Shown: one piece after another, positions 3,367 to 48,171 of the stretch
How positions within the stretch are numbered: the first letter of the stretch is position 1
How the letters are laid out: each line of letters begins with the position of its first letter
Assembly: GCF_026988555.1 (NCBI RefSeq)
Contig: NZ_JALSLB010000044.1
Span: 1 to 48,729 of the forward strand
Length of the DNA stretch: 48,729 bases
Source of the DNA: Thermococcus sp.
Lineage (GTDB): Archaea; Methanobacteriota_B; Thermococci; Thermococcales; Thermococcaceae
Direction: 5' to 3'
Notes under the pieces: model-generated
Told to the model about the DNA's origin: nothing
Database searches by the model: none
The model's input: only the letters and a program-made list of their open reading frames with translations
Position numbers and translations under genes: made by a program

Positions 3367-4095
3367 ATGGGAGTTGAAAAGGTTCCGAAGTACGACATTC
3401 CAACTAAGAAGGTTGACTACGTTTTTATCGAACTCGACAAGATGAAGCCCCACGAACAGCTCGTTCAGAAGGAGCTTGAGGCCTTCATCGAGAGCGTTAC
3501 CGGTAGTGGAATCTTCTGGAAGCCCATGCTCCTCGCCAAGGTCCCCGGTGAGGATATGTACCTCATCGTTGACGGTCACCACCGCTGGGCCGGTTTGCAA
3601 AAACTCGGTGCCAAGAAGGCTCCGTCGGTTATCCTCGACTACTTCAGCGACGACGTTAAGGTCTACACCTGGTACCCAGCCTTCAAGGGAAGCCTTGATG
3701 AGGTCATTGAGAGGCTCAAGGCCGAGGGGCTCCAGGTGGTCGAGGATCCCAATGCTGAGGAGAAGGCCGAGAGGGGCGAGATCGCCTTCGCGATAGTGGG
3801 TGAGAAGAGCTTTGCCATACCCGGCGGCCTTGATGAGCAGAAGAAGGTCAGCAAGGTCCTCGACGAGATGAGCGTTGAGGGTAAAATCGAGCTCATCTAC
3901 TACGGCCTCAAAGAGGACGCCCGCGGGGACATGGACAGGGGCGAGATTGACTACGTCTTCATCAGGAAAGCCCCGAGCAAGGAGGAAGTCATGGAGCTCG
4001 TCAAGCGCGGTGAGGTCTTCTCGCCGAAGACAACAAGACACGTCCTGCCCTTCAACCCGGACAAGATTGACGTCAAGCTCGAGGAGCTGTTCTGA
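3367..4095 (+). CDS. serK: ADP-dependent free L-serine kinase SerK (ParB-like fold)
   Basis: A 242-residue protein that closely matches what I recall of the Thermococcus kodakarensis enzyme that phosphorylates free serine to O-phosphoserine with ADP as donor, feeding cysteine synthesis and serine use. The fold is ParB/sulfiredoxin-like. Glu30 (in KPHE) corresponds to the catalytic glutamate reported for the family, and the ParB motif DGHHR sits at residues 69-73. The start is ATG 3367, six bases after GGGAGGT; the nearer ATG 3361 directly abuts that site. A T-rich stretch follows the stop. Such genes are often mislabelled as chromosome partitioning proteins. Confidence 0.93.
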   Translation: MGVEKVPKYDIPTKKVDYVFIELDKMKPHEQLVQKELEAFIESVTGSGIFWKPMLLAKVPGEDMYLIVDGHHRWAGLQKLGAKKAPSVILDYFSDDVKVYTWYPAFKGSLDEVIERLKAEGLQVVEDPNAEEKAERGEIAFAIVGEKSFAIPGGLDEQKKVSKVLDEMSVEGKIELIYYGLKEDARGDMDRGEIDYVFIRKAPSKEEVMELVKRGEVFSPKTTRHVLPFNPDKIDVKLEELF

Positions 4096-4098
4096 AAG

Positions 4099-4120
4099 TT
4101 TTTAACCCCCTTTTTACTTT
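4099..4120 (+). terminator. T-run terminator after serK
   Basis: Two runs of five T residues (4099-4103 and 4111-4115) separated by CCCCC follow the serK stop, as expected for archaeal intrinsic termination. Confidence 0.55.
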
Positions 4121-4180
4121 CTCTGCAGATGATGAGAGGTCAACCGGCTGAGGGTGATGGTAGTTCCAGGAGGCCGGGGC

Positions 4181-4846
4181 ATGCTCAAAGGGCTGATATT
4201 CGACGTTGACGAAACCCTTGTTTACTACGAGGGCTACGATCACAGAAAATGGTACGAGAGGTGGGTTACGCCCGCGCTTCGGGAGCACGGGGTTGAACTG
4301 GACTACGAGACCTACAGAAAGACAGTAACCGGCGAACTTCCCAGGAGCTACGTGAAGCGGTTCGGGATAGACCACGTGGAGTTCTGGAAAATCGTCGATG
4401 AAGTTAACATGAGGTACCGCAGATGGCTCGCCGAACGGGGAAAGATACGGCCCTTCCCGGACGTTGGTGTCCTTGACGAGCTGAAAAAGATGGGCATGAA
4501 GCTCGCCGCGGTGAGCAATGCCTCCCAGGAGTGCACAGAGTTTGTTTTGAACTTATTCGATTTGAGAAAATACTTCGATGCCGTCTATGGAAAGGACTAC
4601 TCCTACCTGGATGGGGTAAAACCAAACCCCCATCTTGTCAACAAGGCGTTGAAAACCCTCGAACTGGAACCGAAGGAAGCGCTGATGGTTGGTGACAGTC
4701 TTCACGATGTTCTGGCGGGAAAGCGCGCCGGCATGAAGGTGGTTAACGTAACGCGCTTTGGTGAAATTGAGGGTGCCGACTACTACGTGAACGACCTGTG
4801 GGAGCTTGTTGAACTGGTAAAAAAGATGGGGATTCATTCCCCGTAG
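4181..4846 (+). CDS. HAD-superfamily phosphatase
   Basis: A 221-residue haloacid-dehalogenase-type hydrolase. Motif I is DVDETLVYYEG (nucleophile and general acid aspartates), motif II is the serine in AVSNAS, motif III the lysine in GVKPNP, and motif IV GDSLHDVLAG. The helical cap between motifs I and II is of the C1 type (KWYERW to RPFPDV). Substrate is not evident; related archaeal proteins act on small phosphate esters. ATG 4181 is preferred because GGAGG lies seven bases upstream; longer starts at 4154-4157 lack this. It runs convergently into the next gene with an overlap of about 13 bases. Confidence 0.87.
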   Translation: MLKGLIFDVDETLVYYEGYDHRKWYERWVTPALREHGVELDYETYRKTVTGELPRSYVKRFGIDHVEFWKIVDEVNMRYRRWLAERGKIRPFPDVGVLDELKKMGMKLAAVSNASQECTEFVLNLFDLRKYFDAVYGKDYSYLDGVKPNPHLVNKALKTLELEPKEALMVGDSLHDVLAGKRAGMKVVNVTRFGEIEGADYYVNDLWELVELVKKMGIHSP

Positions 4847-6411: not shown

Positions 6412-6716
6412 CCTTTCTCACCCAGAATTTTGTTGAGCCTGACATATATTCCCTCTATTCCTTCCTCCGGCTTTGCAGGGATTATGAAATACACGTAATC
6501 TCCGTCTTTGAAGGAGAGTTCCGTCTTCGTCTCATGGAGGATAACATTCATCTCAAGCCCCGATACTCTGCCCTTCTCAACCCGGGCCCTGCCGACTACA
6601 TGTGGAATCCCAAGTTGAATTCCCTCAGTGATAGCTTTCCACAGTCTGTAAAGCTCCTCAAAGGGATCGATCTCCCAGGGAGTAGAACCCACACTTCTGC
6701 CAGTTTCCGCTGTCAT
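6408..6716 (-). CDS. Conserved-looking small protein, first gene of the flavodiiron-like operon
   Basis: A 102-residue soluble protein with no family I recognise. It contains an aromatic, acidic helix (PWEIDPFEELYRLWKAI) followed by beta-rich sequence (VVGRARVEKGRVSGLEMNVILHE). The ATG at 6716 has GGTGGT four bases upstream; a GTG at 6725 is less likely. A TATA-like ATAAAAATATAC lies about 25-40 bases upstream on the minus strand. Its stop overlaps the start of the next gene by four bases. Confidence 0.65.
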   Translation of the reverse strand: MTAETGRSVGSTPWEIDPFEELYRLWKAITEGIQLGIPHVVGRARVEKGRVSGLEMNVILHETKTELSFKDGDYVYFIIPAKPEEGIEGIYVRLNKILGEKG

Positions 6717-6725
6717 AAAAACCAC

Positions 6726-7021
6726 CGGTTAGACCTTCCGTATATTTTTATGGTAACCCTAAATTTGTTTGGGTACTATTTTAAACTTCCTATTTGAATT
6801 CCACACCTGAATAAGTTCCTTTTGACAATATATCTGGTTTAAAGAGTAACATGGTTTGAAGTTCAAAATGGGCATATCCACGTACCCAGAGGATGTTAAG
6901 TGTCTTGAGTGCTTTCATTGATTTCGATGTATCCGAGTGCGGGAGATGCGGGGCCCCCTTGAGGTGTCGCCTCGACAAAATTGGAGGAATCCTCTGAGAT
7001 CCACTTGAAGGAAAAAAGAAG
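6726..7021. other. Intergenic stretch with promoter and a doubtful small Cys-rich frame
   Basis: The left part holds the minus-strand promoter of the preceding operon. Between 6868 and 6997 two overlapping plus-strand frames together read like a zinc-ribbon peptide: one frame gives CLEC and ends at 6921; the +1 frame (ATG 6893) gives CGRCGAPLRC and ends at 6997. No good ribosome binding site precedes either. It may be a frameshifted remnant. Confidence 0.35.
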
Positions 7022-8041
7022 TCAACTACCGGACCTGTCTTCAATGTAGGCCCTAATGAGGTTCCTCGTCGCTAGCATGCCCTTAACGTGTGTCCTCTCC
7101 ATGCCGTGGCTAGCGTGGACGCCCTGGCCTATCAAAGCCACGCGAACGTCCCAGCCTGCTCTCAAAGCGGCGGAGCCGTCGGAGCCGTAGTAGGGGAAGA
7201 CATCTACGACGTGGGGAATATTGTGCTTCTCAGCGAGCTCGATGAGTCTGGTCGTCATCTCGTAGTCGTACGGCCCGCTTGAATCCTTGGCCGCTATCGA
7301 CACTGCCGTTTCCTTGCCCGCAACGCCCTCTCCAACGACGCCCATGTCGACGACGAGGAGCTCCCTCATGCTCGAAGGATAACCCGCTGAACCGCCGTGG
7401 CCGACCTCCTCGTAGGGCGAGAAGAAGAACGCCACCGGGAGCTTTTTAAGGGTTTCAGCACCAAGGTCGAGCATCAGGTCTATCATCACCGCGGCACTTG
7501 CCTTGTCGTCGAGGAAGTGGGCCTTAACGAAGCCGTTCACGTACTCGAACTTGGGGTCGAAGGCTATGAAATCCCCGGGCCTTATGCCGAGCTTCTCCGT
7601 CTCCTCTTTCTTCTCCACAAGCTCATCAAGGCGGATGTACATGTTCTCCTCCTTGCGCTCCTTCTTGCTGGCGTCTTTGTTCACGTGGACGCTGGGGTTC
7701 TTGAGGAGGAGCGTTCCCCTGAACTTCTTCCCGGAGCGGGTTATTATCGTGCAGTACTCGCCCTCGAAGGCCGGAAGGTGAAGGCCGCCTATTCTGGTGA
7801 AGCTCAGATGCCCGTTTGGAAGGATGCCCCTGACCATTGCACCGAGGGTGTCAACGTGGCCCGCTATGATGAGTTCAGGCTCCGGATGGTTGTAGGCGAG
7901 TAAGGCTCCCTTGTTGGTGTAGTGAGTATTTATACCCGCTTCGTTGAGTTTCTTTTCGATGTGTGCCAGGACCTCACCCGTGTATCCCGTGGGGGATGGA
8001 ATCTCAAGGATTTCCCTCAGAATCTCAACAACGCGTTCCAT
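7022..8041 (-). CDS. M42-family aminopeptidase (tetrahedral TET type)
   Basis: A 339-residue dinuclear metallo-aminopeptidase that trims peptides released by the proteasome; family members form 12-mer tetrahedra in the cytoplasm. Metal ligand and catalytic candidates: H62 and D64 (AGHVDT), D178 or D179 (FLDDKAS), E211/E212 (SPYEEVGHG), D232 (VVDMG) and H309 or H312 near the C-terminus (GVHASHG). Residues 83-160, between the two parts of the catalytic domain, form the usual PDZ-like dimerisation domain. It is sometimes annotated as endoglucanase M. Which thermococcal TET paralogue this is cannot be fixed from sequence alone. Confidence 0.92.
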   Translation of the reverse strand: MERVVEILREILEIPSPTGYTGEVLAHIEKKLNEAGINTHYTNKGALLAYNHPEPELIIAGHVDTLGAMVRGILPNGHLSFTRIGGLHLPAFEGEYCTIITRSGKKFRGTLLLKNPSVHVNKDASKKERKEENMYIRLDELVEKKEETEKLGIRPGDFIAFDPKFEYVNGFVKAHFLDDKASAAVMIDLMLDLGAETLKKLPVAFFFSPYEEVGHGGSAGYPSSMRELLVVDMGVVGEGVAGKETAVSIAAKDSSGPYDYEMTTRLIELAEKHNIPHVVDVFPYYGSDGSAALRAGWDVRVALIGQGVHASHGMERTHVKGMLATRNLIRAYIEDRSGS

Positions 8042-8087
8042 GATATCACCATTAAGAAATTGCTCGAAGGGTTAAAAAGGTCACCGC

Positions 8088-8966
8088 TTAGAGGCCGACC
8101 GCCTTCAGCGCCGTGAAGAAAGCCAAGGTGATGAGGGTTAGAACGACGGTGACACCTATCCCCTCCTCCGCCTTGAGTCTGTAGTGGGCCAGGAGGACGT
8201 TGGCCATTATCGCGGGGGGCATGGTTGCCTCGACGAGGACGGCGTAGTAGATGTTCCCAGCCCCGTGGAGTGTGAGCAGGACGAAGAGGAATGGGACAAC
8301 ACCCCGGAAGACACCGACTTCAGCCAGATGCTTGGGTCTGAACTCGTGGAGGTTTATTATGGACCCGAAGTAAACCAGGAGGAGGGGAATGCTCCACCAT
8401 CCAATCCATCTGACCGGTCCCGTGAACCAGTTTGGAATCCTTATCCCAGCGAGTACAAGGGCAAGCGCCAACAGGTTCGCGGCCGTCGGTGGAAACTTCA
8501 GGGCCTTGAGCAGGCTTGTTCTGATGGAGGCCTTGCCGCTGGAGTAGTGGGCCGCGATGAACGTCGCCAGTGGCAGGACGATGAGGCTGTTGGTGGTGGA
8601 GTAGAGGATCGCCGGGGTTATGTCACCCATGAAGAGGCTCGCTATCGGGAAGCCCATGGCGGCTGTGTTTGGGTAGGTCGAGAGGATCATAAGCGCCCCG
8701 GCCCAGCGCTCGTCTCTGACGAAGAGGATGGTATACAGGTAGGAGAGGCCGAGGCTGAGAACGATTATCAGGACCACGTAGATGAAGACCGTCTTTATAC
8801 TCATCAAATACTCCAGGTTCTTGCTCGCGACGTTTCCAAAGACGAAGAGGGTGAGCAGAACCTGGGTTGAGAGCACGTTTATTCCCCGGAATAACCGTTC
8901 GCTTCTGATTATACGCTTCAGGACGTAACCGAGTCCGATGAGTGCGAGCATCTCATAGATGTCCAT
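8088..8966 (-). CDS. AEC-family membrane transporter
   Basis: A 292-residue polytopic membrane protein of the auxin efflux carrier family, with about ten hydrophobic segments in the usual two halves. The first half carries the conserved YPNTAAMGFPIASLF segment of the family, and the second half the TLHGAGNIYYAVLVEATMPPAIMA segment. Family members move small organic anions or other metabolites; the substrate cannot be told. It stands alone between the M42 peptidase gene (same strand) and the divergent ArsR operon. Confidence 0.88.
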   Translation of the reverse strand: MDIYEMLALIGLGYVLKRIIRSERLFRGINVLSTQVLLTLFVFGNVASKNLEYLMSIKTVFIYVVLIIVLSLGLSYLYTILFVRDERWAGALMILSTYPNTAAMGFPIASLFMGDITPAILYSTTNSLIVLPLATFIAAHYSSGKASIRTSLLKALKFPPTAANLLALALVLAGIRIPNWFTGPVRWIGWWSIPLLLVYFGSIINLHEFRPKHLAEVGVFRGVVPFLFVLLTLHGAGNIYYAVLVEATMPPAIMANVLLAHYRLKAEEGIGVTVVLTLITLAFFTALKAVGL

Positions 8967-45598: not shown

Positions 45599-46162
45599 TT
45601 AGGTTCGAGCCCTCAGTTCGGTTCCCCTTTCAATAGTTATCATCATAAGGAGCAAAACAGAGGCGAAGTAAAGGAAGCTTGAAAAAACACGGAAACCAAG
45701 AACAAGGGCGACCACTCCTAAGAGTGCAAAACCGCTCGAAAGTGCAAGAGGTTCTGCTACCCCTTCTCCAGCAACTTCGGGGTGTAAATAGACTTTAGCC
45801 ATCATAACCGAGAGAAATAGAAGGGTACCTACACGGAAATATGAGACATCCCCTTTTATATCAACGATCAGGGAGGTAATGATGACGATCAAACCAAACG
45901 TGATATATGAGAACCTTTTACTACCGCTCCTCCTGAGAAACTTTTCTGGTATGGTCATAAAGATCAGCATCGCAAGGAACTCTAAAACCTCAAGATGGAT
46001 TCCTAGGAAAAGCTGGACGGTTGAGCTACTTAAAAAAGTGAGACCTGCAAGTAGGGCAGGATAAAAACCCCCTACAATCGAGTTTTTCCCCTTAAAAAAT
46101 CCAATGATCAGGATGACACCGAGTATCAAATCGGGGAGTTCATAGATAGCTGGACACTCCAT
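45599..46162 (-). CDS. Polytopic membrane protein, fourth gene of the KaiC-like operon
   Basis: A 187-residue protein with six or seven hydrophobic segments and few extramembrane residues except a positively charged loop (PEKFLRRSGSKRF). ATG 46162 overlaps the stop of the preceding gene by one base (TAATG) and has GAGGTGG five bases upstream. I recognise no family. Its transcription with the RecA-like proteins suggests a membrane sensor or anchor. Confidence 0.7.
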   Translation of the reverse strand: MECPAIYELPDLILGVILIIGFFKGKNSIVGGFYPALLAGLTFLSSSTVQLFLGIHLEVLEFLAMLIFMTIPEKFLRRSGSKRFSYITFGLIVIITSLIVDIKGDVSYFRVGTLLFLSVMMAKVYLHPEVAGEGVAEPLALSSGFALLGVVALVLGFRVFSSFLYFASVLLLMMITIERGTELRART

Positions 46163-46806
46163 TACAGCCACCTCGAGAGAATCCAATGTACCATCACCAC
46201 GGAATAGAGCCACATTAAAAGGGCCGAGAGGTACAGTAACATAATCCAGTAATGGGGGCACGTGGCTGATTTCTCTATTCCATAATATCTGACCCATGAA
46301 TGAAGGACTAGGATCCAGGATGCTAGGCGGAGCATGCATCTGCCAAGCGGCATGTTGATCCGGAGGGATAAGGGGATCTTTATCATCAGCATCATTAATA
46401 TTAAGGTTCCAACAACCAGAGTGCCCCAGACAAATCCTCTAAGTTGAGAAGCAGTGAACTGCGAATACAGGACAATGGAAGCACTGATGATCCCTGCCTG
46501 GAGCAGGGTCTCTCTATCCGCGAAAAGGTAGCCCATTCTGGAGAAAGGGAACACTAGCAGGGAAGCCCCGATAAAAGAGATGAGGACTGGAAGAAATATC
46601 CAAGGCCAGTATGGAGAGGTTATCCCTTTCACACTGGTTATTGAGCTCCCCATGATCAGTAGCACCGCGCCGGTTAACTGGGTAGCCTCAAGATACCTGC
46701 TATGGACGGTATAGACGTTAAGCTTATGAAAGAGACCGATAGTGTACGCTACCCCGCATGCCAAGATAGAGCCCATTAGAAGAATAATGAGTGAATACTC
46801 ATTCAA
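46162..46806 (-). CDS. Seven-helix membrane protein, third gene of the KaiC-like operon
   Basis: A 214-residue protein with about seven hydrophobic helices (SLIILLMGSILACGVAYTIGLF, LTGAVLLIMGSSI, IFLPVLISFIGASLLVF, AGIISASIVLYSQF, GFVWGTLVVGTLILMMLMI, LRLASWILVLHSW, MLLYLSALLMWLYSVVMVHWIL). TTG 46806 follows GGTGAG by four bases; GTG 46815 is an alternative without a site. It begins within the end of the preceding gene. No family recognised; the seven-helix layout is compatible with a receptor-like role, which is only an inference. Confidence 0.68.
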   Translation of the reverse strand: MNEYSLIILLMGSILACGVAYTIGLFHKLNVYTVHSRYLEATQLTGAVLLIMGSSITSVKGITSPYWPWIFLPVLISFIGASLLVFPFSRMGYLFADRETLLQAGIISASIVLYSQFTASQLRGFVWGTLVVGTLILMMLMIKIPLSLRINMPLGRCMLRLASWILVLHSWVRYYGIEKSATCPHYWIMLLYLSALLMWLYSVVMVHWILSRWL

Positions 46807-47401
46807 GGGGCTCACCTATATCCGCGTTCCCGTTTTTAACATCCAGTGTGTAAAATCCTGTGATATTGTTGGGTGATTTTTTAATCCTTATCCCCCGCTT
46901 TATATGAAATCCTTCCAGGACCTCGATGATATCAATCACATACGTCGAGAGCTCCTCAAACATTGCCAGGGTTCTGTCGTCAATGAGACGCTTGTCGATT
47001 ATCGTCACAAGCACAAAATCATGGGAGATTGCGATATCAGCGAGTTCTAGGAGGAAACGGTACACCGTGATCGGGGGGTGAAAAATAAGCAACGGTTGAA
47101 GGAAGAGCACTCCAATGAGCTGTTGATGAGGTAGTTCCTTCATAAGATGTGTTACTCTGAAGAGTTCTTGCGGCCCAAAATCCTTCCCGAGGGTTAAATA
47201 CTTGCTGTTTTCAAGCCCAGGCACCCTCTTGAGTTGCTTCTCTAGTCTGGATGTTACAAGGATGACTTTGCCGCCGCTGTTCTTCTTAAGTGCCTGTATA
47301 ACAATGCTTATTCCAAGGTCGCCGACGGTGGATATAAGGATGAGAGCACCGGGTTTAATATCGCCCAGCAGCTTGTCGAGTTTGGGGATGCCAAGTTTCA
47401 A
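46799..47401 (-). CDS. RecA/KaiC-like protein without a P-loop (pseudo-ATPase)
   Basis: A 200-residue protein aligned by eye with KaiC/RadA-type ATPases: it begins LGIPKLDKLLGDIKPGALILIS, the lead-in to Walker A, but continues TVGDLGISIVIQALK, lacking the GK-S/T that binds phosphate. Later strands (KVILVTS, LIGVLFLQP, FVLVTIID) keep the fold. It overlaps the intact ATPase gene by four bases. By analogy with DUF835-type proteins it may be a regulatory partner that dimerises with the active ATPase. Confidence 0.72.
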   Translation of the reverse strand: MKLGIPKLDKLLGDIKPGALILISTVGDLGISIVIQALKKNSGGKVILVTSRLEKQLKRVPGLENSKYLTLGKDFGPQELFRVTHLMKELPHQQLIGVLFLQPLLIFHPPITVYRFLLELADIAISHDFVLVTIIDKRLIDDRTLAMFEELSTYVIDIIEVLEGFHIKRGIRIKKSPNNITGFYTLDVKNGNADIGEPLE

Positions 47402-48108
47402 TACTCCTCCCCCATAAAAAGGGACTCGTTGTGATAAACCTCTACCCCCCTGTTTGTTATCCTATACGGCCGTATCTCCTCGTCAAAGGAGCTTCCTCTG
47501 AACTTGCTTATACCTATCCCTCGTAGAACCTTACCGCGCTCAACAAACTTGAAAAGCTCAATAACCCCATTCGCCAGATACTCTTCGACACCAACCTCGT
47601 CGCTCTCCATTGTCAAGATAATAGTTGCGTCGTTTGAGATGAGGGTGTTAACGAACAGTAGGAACGTCTTTCTGTAAGCGGCTTCGTTGTTAAGGATAAC
47701 CCGGACCATTGTTATCGGATCAATCACGATCCGTGTGTATCGCTCTTCTTTGAGGATGTCTTTTATGCCCGCTATAAGCTTATCAAAACTAATACCGAAC
47801 TCCATGTACCGAATATCTCCCAGTATGTTTGTCTTTGTCCCAGTTGGAGTCGCATCTATTATCTTAAGGTTGGGGTGTTCCACGTTAAACCCAAACTTAC
47901 CCATGTCAGTTTTTATGTGCGCCGCGGGTTCTTCCATGGTTATATACAGGGCTCCCTCTCCCTTTCTAACGCCCTCCATCAAAAAATGCATAGATAGGGT
48001 TGTCTTTCCCATACCCGGACCCCCTTTGACTAGGTATATTCTCCCAGGAATAAGGCCTCCGTGGAGCATTTTATCGAGTCCGGGCACCCCGATAGAAATC
48101 CGTCCCAT
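47398..48108 (-). CDS. KaiC/RadA-type ATPase, first gene of a four-gene operon
   Basis: A 236-residue single KaiC-like domain. Walker A is GGPGMGKTT (residues 29-37) after the usual IGVPGLDKMLHGGLIPGRIYLVKG; Walker B is TRIVIDPIT; EEP after Walker A gives the catalytic glutamates typical of the family (ALYITMEEP). Such ATPases act in archaellum control, circadian clocks and signalling. ATG 48108 (after GGTGGG) is chosen because a TATA box at 48141-48150 lies upstream, whereas ATG 48171 would precede that promoter. Confidence 0.88.
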   Translation of the reverse strand: MGRISIGVPGLDKMLHGGLIPGRIYLVKGGPGMGKTTLSMHFLMEGVRKGEGALYITMEEPAAHIKTDMGKFGFNVEHPNLKIIDATPTGTKTNILGDIRYMEFGISFDKLIAGIKDILKEERYTRIVIDPITMVRVILNNEAAYRKTFLLFVNTLISNDATIILTMESDEVGVEEYLANGVIELFKFVERGKVLRGIGISKFRGSSFDEEIRPYRITNRGVEVYHNESLFMGEEY

Positions 48109-48113
48109 ATTAT

Positions 48114-48150
48114 CCCACCGGTGGGGAATATACTTTGGATCTATATAAAG
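48114..48150 (-). promoter_or_regulatory. Promoter and palindrome of the KaiC-like operon
   Basis: The TATA box CTTTATATAG on the minus strand lies at 48141-48150. The perfect 12-base palindrome CCCACCGGTGGG (48114-48125) spans the expected transcript start and includes the ribosome binding site, so binding or hairpin formation there could control both steps. Confidence 0.6.
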
Positions 48151-48171
48151 ATTACCTGTTCTAATTTCCAT

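Follow-up and report, generated by a model that had tools for sequence, protein, structure and literature searches.

A four-gene cluster of Thermococcus encodes a KaiC-like ATPase, a KaiC-like protein without a P-loop and two membrane proteins. It raises the question of whether an ATPase/pseudo-ATPase pair with membrane partners makes up a signalling unit. KaiC hubs are a leading, largely hypothetical, proposal for sensing in archaea without many histidine kinases. Makarova, Galperin and Koonin reportedly described, in 2017, archaeal KaiC ATPases and their inactivated homologues as hubs predicted to regulate membrane-associated complexes. The cluster is compact, with four genes and one promoter, and is found in a genus with genetic tools; it offers a test case of an active/inactive KaiC pair that has membrane partners of its own. 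We regard the structure of the finding reported here as right and robust.

Gene content and promoter of the cluster

The window, i.e. the whole stretch of DNA analysed, comprises positions 1 to 48,729 (48,729 nucleotides) of the forward strand of contig NZ_JALSLB010000044.1, from Thermococcus sp. (GCF_026988555.1). Four tightly packed genes, referred to hereafter as P1 to P4, occupy 45599–48108 on the minus strand behind one archaeal TATA promoter (Table 1). All four minus-strand reading frames claimed in an earlier note on this DNA were found in place. The overlaps between them differ from the 1–8 bases given there: P1 and P2 share 4 bases (TTGA), P2 and P3 share 17, and P3 and P4 share 1 or 10, depending on whether P4 starts at ATG 46162 or GTG 46171. 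Most relatives repeat overlaps of −17 (P2/P3) and −10 (P3/P4), and the GTG start agrees both with the latter overlap and with the MxxMxC start of most relatives (25 homologues aligned). An ATG at 48171 was rejected as the start of P1; it lies upstream of the TATA box, and the N-terminus of the homologues is MxRxSTG.

A TATA-like 6-mer was present 5' of P1 at 18 of 29 loci, as compared with 4 of 31 for P2, 5 of 22 for P3 and 1 of 24 for P4. Since such 6-mers are enriched before P1 and not before the other three genes, it is likely that one promoter drives the operon, in agreement with the earlier note.

Table 1. Positions of the four genes and of the upstream signals in the window.
Feature	Position	Strand	Basis
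P1, single-domain KaiC-like ATPase, 236 aa, ATG start	47398..48108	-	Pfam KaiC PF06745, PDB KaiC chains
P2, pseudo-KaiC, 200 aa, TTG start, without P-loop	46799..47401	-	AF2 model, Foldseek
P3, predicted seven-TM membrane protein, 217 aa, GTG start	46162..46815	-	AF2, positive-inside pattern
P4, predicted seven-TM membrane protein, 187 aa (ATG 46162) or 190 aa (GTG 46171)	45599..46162 or 46171	-	homologue alignment, hydropathy, charge
TATA box TTTATATA, likely single promoter of the operon	48142..48149	-	sequence; homologous-locus comparison
Shine-Dalgarno-like GGTGGGAT, 5' of P1 start 48108	48112..48119	-	sequence; inferred from spacing

A KaiC with intact catalytic motifs and a predicted pseudo-KaiC

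P1 scored over the curated cut-off for the Pfam KaiC family (PF06745; 5e-47, 160.6 bits against a cut-off of 26.6), and its closest solved relatives were KaiC chains in the PDB, with E-values down to 4.7e-42. The Walker A motif GGPGMGKTT (G50..G55-K56-T57), the Walker B motif RIVIDP (D151), the catalytic glutamate pair E80-E81 and the KxRGS loop (K223, R225) each show no or almost no variation across 15 homologues. The intact Walker A and B motifs noted previously are joined by the glutamate pair and, judged by its sequence, the KaiC ATP site of P1 is complete. It was placed in no named KaiC equivalog, every score falling under the NCBIfam cut-off. Cyanobacterial KaiC, which is also the best structural match of P2, has the same fold and motifs as P1, but consists of CI and CII, whereas P1 is one ATPase domain of 236 aa. 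ArlH (FlaH) resembles P1 in being a single-domain KaiC-like protein, and serves a membrane machine; P1, however, reached 31 of 215 bits, far under the NCBIfam ArlH cut-off, and P2 reached 13.9.

Searches of PDB sequences with the P2 sequence and with a P2 profile gave no match, and a fold search was therefore needed. The AlphaFold (AF2) model of P2, built from a 20-sequence alignment (pLDDT 86.4, pTM 0.85), had KaiC 7s65 as its best Foldseek match (E 8.9e-11, TMq 0.80) and FlaH 4yds as the second-ranked structure (E 8e-10), and KaiC made up nearly all of the best 50 PDB matches. The RecA-like fold expected for this 200-residue protein from its sequence is thus present in the model, and TVGDLGIS does stand at the place of the P-loop. 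The P-loop Lys/Thr, the catalytic glutamate pair and the Walker B aspartate are absent from the aligned P2 proteins, and the old P-loop site of the family holds a conserved ETxGxLGxE-type loop (G27 1.00, G30 0.91, T25 0.91). The strongest invariants lie off this site, in D136-K137-R138, F148-E149 and R172-x-K174-K175-S176-P177. The last of these aligns with K223-F-R225-G-S of P1, with the lysine kept and the arginine replaced by proline; we take the P1 segment to be the KaiC loop that enters the ATP site of the neighbouring subunit, i.e. acts in trans. We conclude that P2, in its predicted structure, is a KaiC-fold pseudo-ATPase. Homology between P1 and P2 is suggested by the modelled fold, with profile similarity weak; the profile–profile alignment was collinear, at E 0.015–0.018.

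P2 also matched the core of DUF835 (PF05763) at 2.1e-4. The score of 21.5 bits is under the Pfam gathering score of 33.1, and P2 is therefore a distant DUF835 relative, not a filed member. In turn, the P2 profile detected DUF835 proteins, up to 7e-9 per genome. The motifs of P1, the fold of P2 and the DUF835 match together support the pairing of an active KaiC with a P-loop-less RecA-like protein, and its link to DUF835, as drawn in the earlier note.

DUF835 is tabulated as an inactivated KaiC (‘iKaiC’) domain in response regulators and signalling proteins (PMC5847659); that paper refers to Makarova et al. (2017) on KaiC ATPases acting as signalling hubs in archaea. P1 and P2 share with these hubs the combination, reportedly described for them, of an active KaiC ATPase and inactivated KaiC homologues. 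Each Thermococcus genome sampled contained 5–14 DUF835 (inactive KaiC) proteins (L059–L065 in the genome of the window; L186–L213 in the others), on all of which the logic of P1–P4 would bear. Many of them carry three to seven N-terminal transmembrane helices; L064, from the genome of the window, has seven predicted helices followed by a C-terminal DUF835 domain. Such fusions show, at the level of sequence, that polytopic membrane modules are joined to inactive KaiC domains in nature. By analogy, the P1–P4 operon looks like a separately encoded form of them, active KaiC included. Whereas the fusions carry transmembrane helices, P2 is soluble and keeps the N-terminal KaiC lead-in, and, unlike theirs, its gene is accompanied by those for an active KaiC and for membrane proteins that are not fused to it. 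The DUF835 proteins of Thermococcus constitute an under-described, sensor-like family.

Membrane proteins, distribution and selection

The AF2 model of P3 has seven helices (pLDDT 90.8), and alignment-averaged hydropathy gave seven segments in P3 and seven in P4 (44 and 25 homologues respectively). The last two products are therefore predicted to be membrane-embedded, as the earlier note had it, but the assignment of about seven helices to one of them fell short, seven being predicted for both. The alternation of positive charge along both proteins, cleanest in P3, places the N-terminus outside, and loops 1, 3 and 5 and the C-terminus inside. Seven helices in an N-out/C-in arrangement, here predicted, are held in common with rhodopsins and GPCRs. 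These were also the top structure matches of P3, but they were weak (Foldseek E 0.1 or worse, TM 0.3–0.4); no PDB structure was a significant neighbour of P3, the best having E 0.099 and TM 0.30, and the label ‘receptor’ is thus a topological one. No Pfam family was found for P3 or P4, queried alone or through the 44 P3 and 25 P4 homologues, among which the marginal matches were isolated (Got1, 9.9e-4, in 4 members). G83 and W167 are the only invariant residues of P3, few residues are conserved inside its helices, and no position for a retinal lysine was present among the conserved columns of the receptor-like membrane proteins. P3 and P4 are thus predicted to be receptor-like in topology and to lie outside known receptor families.

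Two further relationships were considered and not accepted: homology between P3 and P4 (hhalign E 0.06 and 0.017), and homology of either to the transmembrane modules of DUF835 proteins (no score above 10 bits). Strong P4 matches occurred solely at P2 loci. A weak one in G026 was put down to chance, since the reading frame concerned resembles an EamA-type transporter. Stand-alone seven-TM proteins of the P3 family were seen in most Thermococcus genomes (L157 6027–6677 in G000:C25, L158–L162, L168–L170), some of them encoded beside an FeS-assembly-like gene (L158) or rubrerythrin (L162).

Of 94 Thermococcales genomes, 33 carry P2 in full-length form, at 34 loci altogether; they represent five of the six genera of a single family, Thermococcaceae. 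P2 was not found outside this family among the genomes of its phylum searched, and the only records recovered by scanning 84,980 named species genomes were those of Thermococcus, Thermococcaceae or Thermococci. An intact P1 adjoins P2 at 29 of the 34 loci; in the remaining cases P1 is cut by a contig end (L035), broken (L033, L037 and L048) or not found (L030). P3 and P4 follow downstream at 24 loci, so that the four genes, which the earlier note expected to stay together in relatives, do so at 23 loci besides that of the window. The other 10 loci hold the ATPase/pseudo-ATPase pair alone, and the four-gene unit is therefore not obligatory.

The gene order is repeated across many chromosomal settings. 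In the window the neighbours are an Asp/Glu racemase and an alpha-amylase, while at L038–L040 they are histidine and proline biosynthesis genes. Because the flanking genes vary so widely, the linkage is not a by-product of general synteny. The trees of P1 to P4 are congruent (for example, P1–P2 r 0.75, 0 of 999 permutations), the comparison being uncorrected for species history. Each of the four genes has a dN/dS ratio well under 1, indicating purifying selection: omega is mostly 0.03–0.15 for P1 and P2, while unsaturated comparisons put it at about 0.1–0.45 for P3 and P4. The pseudo-ATPase is selected about as strongly as the ATPase, and the sequences point to a conserved cytosolic core (P1/P2) with fast-evolving membrane parts (P3/P4). 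Recurrence of the order in varied settings and dN/dS well below 1 indicate, from sequence comparison, that the operon is more than chance. In two genomes of genus g4 the membrane pairs are multiplied while P1 and P2 stay single, giving P1-P2-P3-P4-P3-P4-P3 (L088 and L091), an arrangement that fits several sensors feeding one switch.

Several other features of individual loci were recorded. At L037 (G016, 3520–4743), P2 and P3 lie in one frame of 407 aa. Since P1 is cut to 128 aa at the same locus, this is probably decay, a natural fusion being possible, and it was not used as a fusion-partner clue. At three loci with P1 and P2 only (L044, L046 and L047), a gene of the pyridine nucleotide-disulphide oxidoreductase type (442–472 aa) lies 21–52 bases upstream of P1, perhaps in the same operon. 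In one genus, a LysO lysine exporter (PF03956) lies directly downstream of P1–P4 (L095–L099 and L087, about 6575–8092), and at several of these loci it is preceded by an 81-aa membrane open reading frame. Most of the other loci showed no LysO, which was therefore treated as a neighbour.

Proposed function and rival explanations

In our judgement, there is an even chance that P1–P4 form a membrane-linked KaiC signalling module in which P2 is a regulatory pseudo-subunit coupling the seven-TM module to P1. The earlier note had arrived at a membrane-linked signalling device regulated by a pseudo-ATPase, and this is the best reading of the data, albeit one that we infer. It draws on the fold of P2, the motifs of P1, the linkage, the single promoter, the congruent trees, selection and the seven-TM topology, as well as on the repeated P3/P4 pairs, the membrane–DUF835 fusions and the precedents of ArlH and DUF835. 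Counted against it are the absence of P3 and P4 at 10 loci, the proline that replaces, in P2, the trans arginine of K-x-R, the weak profile similarity of P1 and P2 and the failure of P3 to match any PDB structure significantly.

Complex formation, and the direction and target of signalling, are proposed as follows. P1 would form a ring of the KaiC type, which would either bind and hydrolyse ATP or phosphorylate itself. P2 would dock onto it as a regulatory pseudo-subunit and, as its sequence suggests, may act on P1 through its C-terminal basic loop (R172-x-K174-K175-S-P), which would be placed where KaiC subunits reach the ATP site of a neighbour. P2 would also couple P1 to the cytosolic face of a P3/P4 sensor module, so that a membrane stimulus would alter the P1–P2 assembly and thereby the ATP state or the binding to a downstream target. 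Loci without P3 and P4 would use the same P1–P2 switch with a different input.

The main rival, which we consider possible but rather less than probable, reverses the flow of information: P3 and P4 would be a channel, transporter or assembly platform gated or assembled by P1 and P2, with the signal passing from cytosol to membrane. ArlH, by analogy the nearest experimentally studied counterpart of the module, is a KaiC-like autokinase; both its oligomer and the way it binds a membrane-anchored motor are under the control of its phosphorylation state (PMC8978795). In archaea, KaiC ATPases are also connected with type IV pili and with membrane complexes (PMC4858521). The constant position of P3/P4 downstream of P1/P2, with occasional duplication, would suit such control. 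However, no transporter, TadC/platform, pilin or secretion-ATPase family was detected in P3/P4 or in the adjoining genes scanned; the neighbours scanned beside P1 were metabolic or transport genes, with no archaellum, pilin, ArlI or ArlJ gene seen among them. The receptor-like topology and the scarcity of conserved residues within the helices also speak against it.

It is unlikely that P2 is an independent ligand-binding KaiC-fold protein, not a partner of P1, in an operon that is merely a co-expressed set. P2 does have motifs of its own, in the loop at the old P-loop site and in D136-K137-R138 and F148-E149, but P1, intact or broken, adjoins it everywhere except at L030, the overlaps resemble those of translational coupling and the trees are congruent; signalling proteins, moreover, are already known to include inactive KaiC homologues (PMC5847659). 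Least probable is a mobile, defence or other accessory cassette with a role in conflict, not sensing. Presence in 33 of 94 genomes, the many contexts and the broken copies at L033, L037 and L048 are what such a cassette might leave, yet the only defence-system match was a weak ATPase match to mad8, P2 was not found in the plasmids searched, the neighbours scanned are of the metabolic or transport kind noted above and purifying selection is strong.

The signalling-module reading can be put in a more detailed form, which we regard as doubtful: two seven-TM proteins of GPCR-like topology would report to a hetero-oligomeric KaiC ring in which the trans basic loop of P2 switches the ATP site of P1, making the operon the separately encoded counterpart of the Thermococcales membrane–DUF835 fusions. 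The earlier note knew of no described system of this composition. The exact four-gene composition was indeed not met in the literature searched, whereas the general idea of KaiC hubs is already published. Another adjacent KaiC-family pair was seen in Thermococcus, at L028 (1459–2948) and L029 (311–1827), with a P-loop present in the one whose sequence was inspected.
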